From assembly GCF_000708675.1 (NCBI RefSeq), contig NZ_JELR01000001.1:1426001-1490000 (forward strand): 64,000 bases of DNA, written 5' to 3'. Every line of letters begins with the position of its first letter. Position 1 is the first letter of the stretch. The DNA is from Microbulbifer sp. HZ11. GTDB taxonomy: Bacteria; Pseudomonadota; Gammaproteobacteria; Pseudomonadales; Cellvibrionaceae. The position numbers were made by a program, and so were the translations under genes. The notes under the pieces are model-generated. The model ran no database searches and was not told the DNA's origin. It was given only the letters and a program-made list of their open reading frames with translations. Positions 1,630-63,433 of this stretch are shown here, one piece after another.

Positions 1630-1999
1630 TTAATTCGCGCCTTGATAATTCTGTGGGCCTGCCAAATGTTGGAAAATGCGACCAAACTACCCCGAACGGT
1701 CGCAAACAGGCCTCGTCTACTGAAAATGGCGGCTAGCTTACCGGGATAGGACCACTCAGTCGAGTGCATGCGTTCACTTGACTAAATTCCGACAGTACAG
1801 AAAGCCTGAATCGGAAGACTGGTCGCGCAATACAAATCGCTTGGCGTAGCCTCGAGCGAAGGTGGCGATGCCGGGTGCGGTCTTGCGAGACCTTCACCGC
1901 CAAGGATGGCGGTGCAGAGCCCCCAGGGATGGGTGGACGGCGTGTCTCGCAAGACCGCACCCGGCAGCGCCACCGCCACCGAATGGCTCAAGTGAAAAA
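1630..1999. other. Intergenic region between dnaE and accA
   Basis: These 370 bp hold no convincing gene. The dnaE-proximal part contains a class A long-hairpin element (1861-1974). The remaining 230 bp before accA should hold the accA leader and promoter, but no strong -35/-10 pair stands out. Confidence 0.6.
1861..1974 (+). repeat. Long-hairpin element, class A, copy 1
   Basis: Arms 1861-1890 and 1945-1974 pair over 30 bp with one mismatch. The 54-nt loop holds an inner hairpin (CACCGCC and GGCGGTG around AAGGAT) and then the class A motif CCCCAGGGATGGG. It begins 25 bp beyond the dnaE stop, antisense to dnaE. The arms share GGTGGCGATGCCGGGTG with other class A copies but diverge towards the loop while staying complementary. 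No T tract follows, so it is not a standard intrinsic terminator. Confidence 0.85.
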
Positions 2000-5572: not shown

Positions 5573-5696
5573 GCACCGAGGGGCGGTAAGCCCTTCCGGG
5601 ACACGAGCTAGGCGCCCCCCGTGAATACATCCATGTAGCTCTGCTCCGACATCCATGTCGGAGAAGGTCCCGGAAGGGCTTACCGCCCCTCGGTGC
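5573..5696 (+). repeat. Long-hairpin element, class B, copy 1
   Basis: Arms 5573-5601 and 5668-5696 are perfectly complementary over 29 bp (starting GCACCGAGGGGCGG). The 66-nt loop holds two smaller hairpins, one closing on TACATCCATGTA and one with arms CTCCGACAT and ATGTCGGAG around CC. The repeated ATCCAT apex defines class B. A class A element follows 88 bp later. Confidence 0.85.
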
Positions 5697-5784
5697 TTAG
5701 TGCAATTCTGGTAATTCGTTACTTCGTAAGCCCGAGAAATCTTATGCGCGTTTTTACTGACAAAGTAGTGCGGCCGAATGCGCA

Positions 5785-5895
5785 GGTGGAGTGCCGGGTG
5801 AAGGTTTTCAGGAGCGTCGCAAACAGGATGTTTGCGCCGCAGCGCCCAGGGATGGGTTCACAGCGGTCCTGAAAACCTTCACCCGGCGCTCCACC
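5785..5895 (+). repeat. Long-hairpin element, class A, copy 2
   Basis: Arms 5785-5813 and 5867-5895 pair over 29 bp with one G-T wobble. The loop has an inner hairpin (CGCAAAC and GTTTGCG around AGGAT), then GCGCCCAGGGATGGGTTCAC. The outer arm is nearly the same as copy 5 at 53386 (GGTGGAGTGCCGGGTG). It begins 15 bp past the stop of the DUF1289 gene at 5911, antisense to it. Confidence 0.85.
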
Positions 5896-5910
5896 GCCAC
5901 AGAAACAAAT

Positions 5911-35475: not shown

Positions 35476-35512
35476 TCACAACTTAAATCGAAGTAATTAA
35501 CTTCGGGCGAAG

Positions 35513-35622
35513 GGCCTGATACCGATAACGGTTCACAGGACCTTCCGCGAGAGGGACCTCGCGGAAGAGCCCCCACGGATGGGTTCACGGTGTGTCCTGT
35601 GAACCGTTATCGGTAGCAGGAC
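35513..35622 (+). repeat. Long-hairpin element, class A, copy 3
   Basis: The core arms 35520-35540 and 35595-35615 pair perfectly over 21 bp (TACCGATAACGGTTCACAGG is the start) and extend about 7 bp outward with two mismatches. The inner hairpin has 10-bp arms CTTCCGCGAG and CTCGCGGAAG around AGGGAC, then GCCCCCACGGATGGGTTCAC. It lies 38 bp after the pepA stop in the sense direction. Confidence 0.87.
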
Positions 35623-35665
35623 CGCCACTAACGGAGGTTCGGTGCTCTGGACCACGTAAAGTGGC

Positions 35666-35779
35666 GGTGCCGCTACCGGGTACAGCTTTGCGAGACACGC
35701 CGTGAACCCATCCATGGGGGCTCTTCTAAAACGTCCCTGTTTTAGAAGGTCTCGCAAAGCTGTACCCGGTATCGCCACC
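35666..35779 (-). repeat. Long-hairpin element, class A, copy 4, inverted
   Basis: Arms 35666-35695 and 35750-35779 pair over 30 bp with two mismatches. On the minus strand the loop carries an inner hairpin with arms CTTCTAAAAC and GTTTTAGAAG around AGGGAC, then CCCCCATGGATGGGTTCACG. The AGGGAC loop is the same as in copy 3 while the inner arms are entirely different, a clear compensatory change. Copies 3 and 4 point towards each other. Confidence 0.87.
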
Positions 35780-35817
35780 TTCGCATCAGCCTCCTGCGCC
35801 TATACAAGTTCCTGCTA

Positions 35818-53158: not shown

Positions 53159-53197
53159 CGCGTAGTTTGGTGGTAATCACTTAGGCGACCCTGTGGC

Positions 53198-53309
53198 GGC
53201 AAAGCACTGGGTATCTGTTTTCAAAACCGCTGTGAATACATCCCTGTACGCTGCGTCGGCAACATCCCTGTTGCCGACGCTTTTGAAAACAGATACCCAG
53301 CACTTTGCC
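53198..53309 (+). repeat. Long-hairpin element, class B, copy 2
   Basis: Arms 53198-53226 and 53281-53309 pair over 29 bp with two mismatches (GGCAAAGCACTGGGTATCTG start). The loop has a small hairpin TACA/TGTA around TCCC and a 12-bp hairpin (GCGTCGGCAACA and TGTTGCCGACGC around TCCC). The ACATCCCTGT apex corresponds to ACATCCATGT in the other class B copies. It starts 39 bp after pgi. Confidence 0.83.
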
Positions 53310-53385
53310 TTCGCATCTCACTACGTGCTCCACCCCAAAAGACGTTACCCCTCAGTTTGAGCTAGGCCACACACTTCGAATTTAA

Positions 53386-53468
53386 GGTGGAGTGCCGGGT
53401 GCGGGTTTTCAGGAGCGCCCAGGGATGGGTTCACAGCGGTCCTGAAAACCCGCACCCGGTGCTCCGCC
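53386..53468 (+). repeat. Long-hairpin element, class A, copy 5, short form
   Basis: Arms 53386-53414 and 53440-53468 pair over 29 bp with minor wobble. The loop is only 25 nt, GCGCCCAGGGATGGGTTCAC and five more bases, and the inner hairpin is absent, so the CCCAGGGATGGGTTCAC segment is the essential class A part. It ends 9 bp from the slipin stop. Confidence 0.85.
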
Positions 53469-53477
53469 GCCACTTAA

Positions 53478-62917: not shown

Positions 62918-62954
62918 TTTAACCTTCGGGGCAACCGATTAGTAGGCCCCGAGG

Positions 62955-63069
62955 CGGCCCTGCTGTCGGGATTCGTTTCCGGGACACGCTACAAGCACAT
63001 CCATGTGCGCTCGGACACGGCCATCCATGGCCGCGTACGGTCCCGGAAACGAATCCCGACATCAGCGCC
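62955..63069 (+). repeat. Long-hairpin element, class B, copy 3
   Basis: Core arms 62964-62984 and 63041-63061 pair perfectly over 21 bp (TGTCGGGATTCGTTTCCGGG) and extend outward with mismatches. The loop has two small hairpins, GCACAT/ATGTGC and CGGCCAT/ATGGCCG, each around CC, giving the ATCCAT apex of class B. It starts about 38 bp after miaB and is followed by a class A element. Confidence 0.85.
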
Positions 63070-63135
63070 TTAGCTTTTGACAACTGTGATTTTCGACCTG
63101 TTCAGGGGCGAAAATACTGGGAACTCGGGGTTAAG

Positions 63136-63245
63136 GCGCCGATACCGATAGCCCTTTGTGAGACCTTCCGCGAGAGGGACCTCGCGGAAGAGCCCCCAGG
63201 GATGGGTTCACGGCGTGTCTCACAAAGGGCTATCGGTAGCGGGGC
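63136..63245 (+). repeat. Long-hairpin element, class A, copy 6
   Basis: Core arms 63143-63163 and 63218-63238 pair perfectly over 21 bp (TACCGATAGCCCTTTGTGAG). The loop, from the inner hairpin CTTCCGCGAG/CTCGCGGAAG around AGGGAC through GAGCCCCCAGGGATGGG, is almost identical to copy 3 at 35513, though their outer arms differ over half the stem. It lies in the 516-bp miaB-phoH interval, the rest of which holds no gene. Confidence 0.87.
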
Positions 63246-63433
63246 CGCCACACCACCACCTACGAAGCACCACAGCCCACTACGAAGTACCGAATTCCCG
63301 AAGCGACCTCAAACCTTCATACTCCCCTGTTATAAGCCACCGGACCGGTTAGAACCCATTCGTCACAAACCGGCCTTTCCCATATTGGCGAAATGGGTAT
63401 AACCTACAGACTGAACCATCAGACAAAAGGTGC

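Follow-up and report, generated by a model that had tools for sequence, protein, structure and literature searches.

The paired hairpins of the window, a 64,000-nucleotide stretch of the Microbulbifer sp. HZ11 genome (here, the home genome), are two opposite copies of one dispersed DNA element. The original prediction had described hairpins of two classes, B followed by A, in three intergenic regions. Both hairpins are present in each region, with arms 30 to 39 bases long that are 85 to 100% complementary and with 88, 76, and 65 bases between the stems. However, A and B are not separate classes. When class A is reverse complemented it has the layout of class B, and the two are a single ~122-nt element on opposite strands. 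Therefore, "B then A" describes an inverted, tail-to-tail pair. The best explanation, which we hold to be moderately probable, is that these units form a dispersed mosaic family that occurs in tail-to-tail pairs and would carry a putative bivalent CsrA-type RNA site.

Read in the class B sense (the "+" or top strand; the class A sense is the bottom strand), a unit consists of an outer arm, GTGAA, a hairpin with the core CATCC(A/C)TG (hairpin 1), GCTC, a second hairpin (hairpin 2), GGTC, and an outer arm. This is a three-way junction, in which a long outer stem encloses two short hairpins. The unit is ~122 nt long, or about 165 nt including weakly conserved 5' and 3' ends of about 23 and 22 nt, respectively. 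An alignment of 29 copies folded into the long stem with its inner hairpins, and 25 of the 32 predicted pairs were changed on both sides in at least one sequence.

A covariance model was built from this alignment and used to search the home genome (4.2 Mb) at an E value of ≤0.001. There were at least 144 units (73 "+" and 71 "−", from the best 150 scored candidates). Hairpin 1 was read in 142 of them and fell into the subtypes CCC-I (77 units), CCC-II (32 units), and TAC (31 units, the original class B), with 2 units unassigned. The window also contains a solo unit and a head-to-head pair (Table 1). Genes adjoining the window units encode DNA polymerase III alpha and chi, a hexapeptide-repeat protein, phosphoglucose isomerase, an SPFH protein, an M17 aminopeptidase, and a radical-SAM protein with UPF0004 and TRAM domains.

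Table 1. Units in the window (positions are those of the window)
Feature	Position	Strand	Arms, loops, and context
CCC-I solo unit	1858..1981	−	
TAC-subtype unit with CTAGGCGCC insert (original class B)	5578..5687	+	Stem arms 5573-5602/5667-5696
Loops CATCCATG (top strand) of the 5578..5687 unit	5628-5635 and 5650-5657		Bottom strand ATGGAT
CCC-II unit (original class A)	5782..5902	−	Arms 5785-5816/5864-5895; plus-strand GGA loops 5825-5829, 5847-5855
CCC-I unit, left half of head-to-head pair	35509..35630	−	
CCC-I unit, right half of head-to-head pair	35659..35782	+	
TAC unit	53191..53313	+	Arms 53198-53229/53278-53309; loops 53239-53246, 53263-53270; 3' of phosphoglucose isomerase gene
CCC-II unit without hairpin 2	53382..53475	−	Arms 53386-53418/53436-53468; loop 53420-53428
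TAC unit	62949..63072	+	Arms 62956-62985/63040-63069; loops 62998-63005, 63022-63029
CCC-I unit	63132..63253	−	Arms 63135-63173/63208-63246; plus-strand GGA loops 63175-63179, 63197-63205

There was no Rfam match in the window at the gathering score. A permissive Rfam search of the three loci gave 14 matches, all of them under the gathering score and 11 of them to microRNA models, and these were rejected. The titles found when the literature was searched by exact sequence were all unrelated. Neither these units nor a dispersed CsrA-site repeat had been described in the top-ranked matches of a literature search that covered few subscription journals.

Close neighbors in the home genome were always inverted. 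Among the at least 144 units, 20 neighboring pairs were less than 150 bp apart (28 to 94 bp), of which 17 were "+−" (tail-to-tail), 3 were "−+" (head-to-head), and none were in the same direction (two-sided binomial P values of 1.9e-6 for 0 of 20 in the same direction and 0.0026 for 17 versus 3). At 150 to 1,500 bp there were four "+−," two "−+," and two same-direction neighbors, and beyond 1.5 kb there were 46 same and 65 opposite (142 units). Two other genomes of the genus gave 14 "+−," 4 "−+," and no same-direction close pairs (G002; 110 units after removal of double calls) and 7, 3, and none (G008; 72 units), although some orthologous sites are common to the home genome, so these counts are not fully independent. 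The gaps between paired units are mostly the units' own weakly conserved ends, and thus the paired units abut. At 75 loci in other genera, 21 pairs were less than 300 bp apart, and these were 17 "+−," 3 "−−," and 1 "++." The predicted composite is therefore real, as an inverted and abutting pair. We also saw some same-direction arrangements. In Tolumonas osonensis (L136, 3945-5053), four same-direction units form two close tandem couples, and two Shewanella loci (L083 and L112) have same-direction couples, with that of L083 lying inside a tandem repeat of about 350 bp.

A fixed plus-strand order of the two hairpins had also been proposed. It holds in the three window regions but not genome-wide. 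In 13 tail-to-tail pairs of unlike subtypes, the TAC unit was first in 8 and second in 5, as expected where one composite may lie either way round. The constant order in the window is thus accounted for by inversion, or strand symmetry, together with a small sample. What is nonrandom in the genome-wide count is the opposite orientation, the closeness, and a mild preference for unlike subtypes. TAC and CCC units were partners in 15 of the 20 close pairs (permutation P of 0.03), and TAC units were enriched in pairs (17/31, versus 23/111 of the others; P of 5e-4). However, most units (104 of the 144 listed) are outside any close pair. No replication-strand bias was visible in G002 or G008, assuming that position 1 is near the origin. 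If an inverted pair (that at 35509-35782 and others) were on one transcript, the loops of its two units can be complementary (AUCCAU with AUGGAU), and such kissing loops could hide GGA sites.

We analyzed the outer stem at three levels. First, within the home genome, the inner ~21 bp had 141 distinct sequences among 142 units (a few of them short fragments of damaged units). Nevertheless, 2,828 of the 2,971 aligned arm positions of this inner stem were Watson-Crick pairs, with 20 G·T and 35 A·C on the top strand. Over the whole stem, the figure was 3,762 of 4,181, with 25 G·T and 202 A·C, many of the A·C at fixed positions as judged from the sequences. In none of the subtypes did sharing the same hairpin 2 make copies more alike in the variable block of the stem (likeness for shared versus different hairpins 2 of 0.387 versus 0.382, 0.434 versus 0.462, and 0.423 versus 0.422). 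Second, for 67 loci in other genera (of 75 given), which were chosen by the hairpin-1 motif only, the arms were more complementary than 99% of mismatched controls in 54; the 13 below this level included both Shewanella inventionis loci. Third, in 29 orthologous units with conserved stems, 563 arm pairs were unchanged, 47 had changed in both arms and were still paired, 34 had changed in one arm (15 to A·C, 4 to G·T, and 15 to others on the top strand), and 4 had changed in other ways. The 47 double changes are probably far more than independent arms would give. In other genera, counted over units with clear arms only, A·C outnumbered G·T among top-strand mismatches by 50:7, which corresponds to wobble pairs on the bottom strand. 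Selection on the stem as an RNA read from the top strand was considered and rejected because G·T is rare there.

The bottom strand is also the one that folds better. It had the lower folding energy for 127 of 142 home units and 82 of 97 units elsewhere with RNA parameters, and for 130 of 142 and 83 of 97, respectively, with DNA parameters. The flanking control leaned the opposite way (bottom strand lower in 25 of 142). We then examined the bottom-strand loops, which were picked by structure and not by motif. ANGGAN was present in 167 of 199 six-nucleotide loops in the home genome and 143 of 153 in other genera but in only 7 of 464 in the flanks. Positions 1, 3, 4, and 5 of these loops are conserved, and positions 2 and 6 are free. 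Five-nucleotide loops carried AGGAN in 39 of 75 cases at home, 4 of 18 in other genera, and 1 of 278 in the flanks. In other genera hairpin 1 is fixed by the search pattern but the remaining hairpins are not, and 92 of these 122 pattern-independent hairpins carry ANGGA or CAGGA. GGA was found in 5 of 317 top-strand loops. At least two GGA-type sites were present in 130 of the 142 home units (12 had fewer), with a median spacing of 24 nt (middle half 23 to 24 nt; 5th to 95th percentile 23 to 40 nt), and in 90 of 97 units from other genera, with a median of 23 nt.

Two kinds of insert were also noted. One, of 15 to 16 nt (around CTAGGCGCCCCCC), precedes hairpin 1 in 29 of 142 home units by a loose pattern, including the unit at 5578-5687, and could form an extra small hairpin in the bottom-strand fold. 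The other enlarges hairpin 2 and ends in GGCGCCTTCGGCC (home C2:152058, C2:1649029, C2:1919732, and C1:969582); it may displace or remove that hairpin's GGA loop.

These loops and their spacing resemble CsrA/RsmA sites. The review PMC7652899 gives the CsrB repeat as CAGGA(U/A/C)G, the SELEX consensus as RUACARGGAUGU, and an ANGGAN hexaloop with RsmE, and it describes CsrA as bridging two sites 10 to 63 nt apart, with the best spacing above 18 nt. The bottom-strand loops of the units are of these types (ANGGAN hexaloop or CAGGA(U/A/C)G), and the distance between them is within the bridging range and above its optimum threshold. Some TAC-type loops, such as those of the unit at 53191 (GTACAGGGATGT), match the SELEX consensus letter for letter. 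Stem length is one point against this reading. Most SELEX ligands had stems of four pairs or fewer, taken in the same review as a hint that very stable stems hinder CsrA binding (PMC7652899), whereas the hairpin-2 stems of the units often exceed four pairs.

We also looked for CsrA itself. Each of the 18 genomes searched had a csrA match, that of G008 being partial. There was one match in each of the unit-rich genomes G000, G001, G002, G005, G008 (the partial one), and G012, and the unit-poor genomes G003, G004, G009, and G010 had 12, 5, 7, and 19, respectively. Exceptions to this pattern were G006, with 64 units and 9 matches, and G011, with 2 units and 1 match. Unit number did not track csrA copies cleanly (Spearman coefficient of −0.44, P of 0.13, for raw match counts in 13 genomes). 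In G003, G004, G006, G009, and G010 (5 to 19 matches), several csrA matches are close together. The sole G008 match covers 32 of 53 positions within a 1,703-amino-acid open frame (G008:C1:2905002-2905097), and the gene may have been missed, be broken, or be divergent there. The CsrB family (RF00018) was found in 0 of 15 genomes, and RsmZ (RF00166) was over the cutoff in 0 of 15, with two weak matches below it (G011 and G012), although RF00166 also gave subthreshold chance matches in two control genomes.

RsmX, RsmY, and RsmZ are sponge RNAs of the same group as CsrB and CsrC. The units are like CsrB and CsrC in having GGA hairpins spaced for a CsrA dimer, with CAGGAUG loops in those RNAs as described in PMC7652899. 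Unlike all of these RNAs, the units have two sites each, are dispersed over more than 100 loci, have a long outer stem, and have no Rfam match at the gathering score.

From these sequence features we infer that the units may bind CsrA, be transcribed, and move. The bottom strand would be transcribed, for example, by read-through from the gene just upstream. The resulting RNA would carry a pair of CsrA sites on top of a stable stem, with which it would titrate or recruit CsrA, and an inverted pair would give one such unit whichever direction is transcribed. For units between tandem genes, transcription entering from the preceding gene would read the bottom strand in 44 cases and the top in 37, which gives no indication that reading of the CsrA-type strand is selected for. 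The elements would spread and reshuffle as members of a non-autonomous mosaic family, with the outer stem staying at its locus, its arms changing together, and the inner hairpins being swapped between copies.

To follow individual loci, we compared orthologous sites in the genus. Flank mapping placed 66 related units next to loci occupied by home units, and for 62 there was a home counterpart; the mapping started only from home loci that carry units and thus gives no loss rate. In 30 of the 62 rows the stem identity was at least 0.8, and among these the hairpin-1 type differed in 5 and hairpin-2 identity was below 0.8 in 11. Therefore, the stem can stay with a locus while its inner hairpins are exchanged. 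Stems differed more in the remaining 32 rows, by divergence or replacement. The direction was the same as that of the matched home unit in 49 of the 62 rows and opposite in 13.

Insertion as one block had been suggested for the pairs, with gain or loss of the whole block expected at orthologous intergenic regions. At the 53198 site, G002 does have the same pair; the stem of its first unit is nearly identical, and the orthologue of the home unit that lacks hairpin 2 (53382..53475) has one. G008 has a pair there with the subtypes exchanged. At this site in G001, about 14.5 kb is inserted (G001:C21:197825-212387), with no unit in the 500 printed bases at either edge. However, the change at the 62955 site involves single units. 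By eye, G008 has the first unit alone and G001 the second unit alone, each inverted in place together with its ends. The stem is almost the same in G008 and similar in G001, and no unit was seen in G002, G005, G012, G011, G010, G003, or G004. Stem likeness suggests that the whole head-to-head pair at 35509-35782 may be inverted in G002, and at another site a second unit is left only as a remnant in the home genome. Thus, in Microbulbifer units are also lost or flipped singly. One further site (C2:350759-351029 of the home genome; L158:60-330) has a unit pair in G002 and one unit in G008, but in the home genome it is occupied by another kind of palindromic repeat (CCGTCATGCCGGACTTGATCCGGCAT...CCGGAATGACGG).

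One unit of Stenotrophomonas sp. VV52 had 40 matches, of which the 29 longest listed were examined (83 to 100% identity; L348 matches in the middle only). A tail-to-tail partner was present for 17 of these copies by the model and for 1 more, interrupted, by eye; 11 were solo. Several loci have the same partner, with the spacer varying in length, and this recurrence fits movement as a block. Some of these spacers contain stretches that look, by eye, like REPs listed in PMC2817692. The copies suggest that the element is mobile at least in Stenotrophomonas. More widely, the matches listed for the hairpin-1 motif include Alteromonas, Glaciecola, Arenimonas, Xanthomonas, Stenotrophomonas, Vreelandella, Alishewanella, Nitrincola, Marinobacter, Shewanella, Oceanisphaera, Zobellella, Tolumonas, and others. 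With stricter filters, the covariance model matched 28 genomes, the home genome among them, in a sample of 185 from across the class. The element is a mosaic palindrome, intergenic and probably mobile.

Mobility of this kind raises the alternative that the units are REPIN/BIME- or MITE-like non-autonomous elements, whose folded bottom-strand single-stranded DNA is read by a transposase or recombinase, with the GGA loops and the junction as its marks. The tail-to-tail pair would then be the mobile form with two unlike ends, and solo units would be remnants. We consider this less likely than the CsrA reading. The recurrence of the VV52 composite with variable spacers (18 of 29 copies partnered tail-to-tail), the inversion of all 20 close home pairs, as in the inverted doublets of REPINs and BIMEs, the flipping in place of single units and apparently of whole pairs, and the enrichment of TAC units in pairs all agree with it, and the conserved GGA loop could equally be a transposase mark on folded single-stranded DNA. 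Inverted repeats between the two flanks were also slightly in excess (8-mers, 8 versus a mean of 3.2; 1 of 200 permutations was as high). However, direct repeats of 6 to 9 nt at the unit edges were within the permutation range (6-mers, 50 versus a mean of 44; 9-mers, 4 versus 1.8), and home units gave no clear signal of target-site duplication, unit boundaries being uncertain in both cases. Nor does this alternative predict the exact variation pattern of ANGGAN. A link to REP transposases was not supported. Genomes rich in units are not those rich in Y1 transposase (PF01797) matches (0 matches and 52 units in G012, 4 and 2 in G009, and 6 and 5 in G010), and the nearest listed home unit (of at least 144) is about 7.9 kb from any of the four home matches. 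No RAYT gene with cognate flanking repeats was found at the listed home units.

According to PMC3116915 and PMC2817692, REPINs and BIMEs are high-copy intergenic palindromes, mostly inverted doublets with variable spacers, compensatory arm changes, and a mosaic structure, all of which is like the units. However, REPs are 20 to 40 bp long (PMC3733652), whereas the units are ~122 nt with two inner hairpins, are conserved inside with a free outer stem, and have no RAYT-type gene beside any listed home unit. Outside Microbulbifer, 15 of 109 model matches had a GT(A/G)G head like that of REPs; of the home units anchored on TGGCG, most are headed by GTGG (113/142; G in 92%). Compared by description only, the RU-1 to RU-3 repeats (ERIC-like) and other bacterial MITEs are also mobile repeats, of 103 to 168 bp, in multiple intergenic regions (PMC2759123). 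The units appear to differ from a plain copy-and-paste MITE in sharing their inner loops and not their stem sequence.

The position of the units relative to genes suggests another alternative, that they are ordinary 3'-end hairpins that stabilize or terminate the transcripts of preceding genes without a specific binding protein. The median distance to the 3' end of a facing gene was 42 nt (155 cases), and by crude gene calls the context of the 142 units was convergent for 35, tandem for 81, and divergent for 7 (19 were not classified, and 15 overlap a called frame). The folds are also very stable. However, the home units do not have the T-run after the stem that is expected of intrinsic terminators, as five Ts within 15 nt were found at the tail of 7 and the head of 1 of 142 units, compared with 3 and 3 in the control. 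Neither the conserved loop sequence nor the 23- to 24-nt spacing is needed for such a role, and we regard it as improbable. Finally, a structure-recognized recombination site of the attC kind, or another folded-DNA site read by shape instead of sequence, would fit the stem that is free in sequence yet complementary in other genera (54 of 67 loci above the 99% control) and the bottom-strand folding bias, but the units lie at gene ends in both directions with no cassette array, and one unit had no match in plasmid or phage collections. This alternative seems very improbable. The E. coli collection likewise gave no match to one unit.

We return to the putative bivalent CsrA-type site. A more specific proposal, which we make tentatively, is that a mobile or once-mobile repeat of the Gammaproteobacteria spreads more than 100 candidate bivalent CsrA/RsmA modules per genome and might thereby connect genes to the Csr network or act as a chromosome-wide sponge within it, with the tail-to-tail pair keeping one module readable from either direction. 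Long intergenic palindromes of bacteria are often classed as selfish or structural DNA. In this family, a two-site motif is kept across many genera while almost everything around it varies, and comparison gives clear evidence of concerted change in the two arms of a bacterial palindrome. If it folds into twin CsrA sites, the element may represent a type of regulatory repeat that has gone unrecognized in marine and environmental bacteria, and if CsrA binds the units, the family would be a large unrecognized arm of a global regulator.
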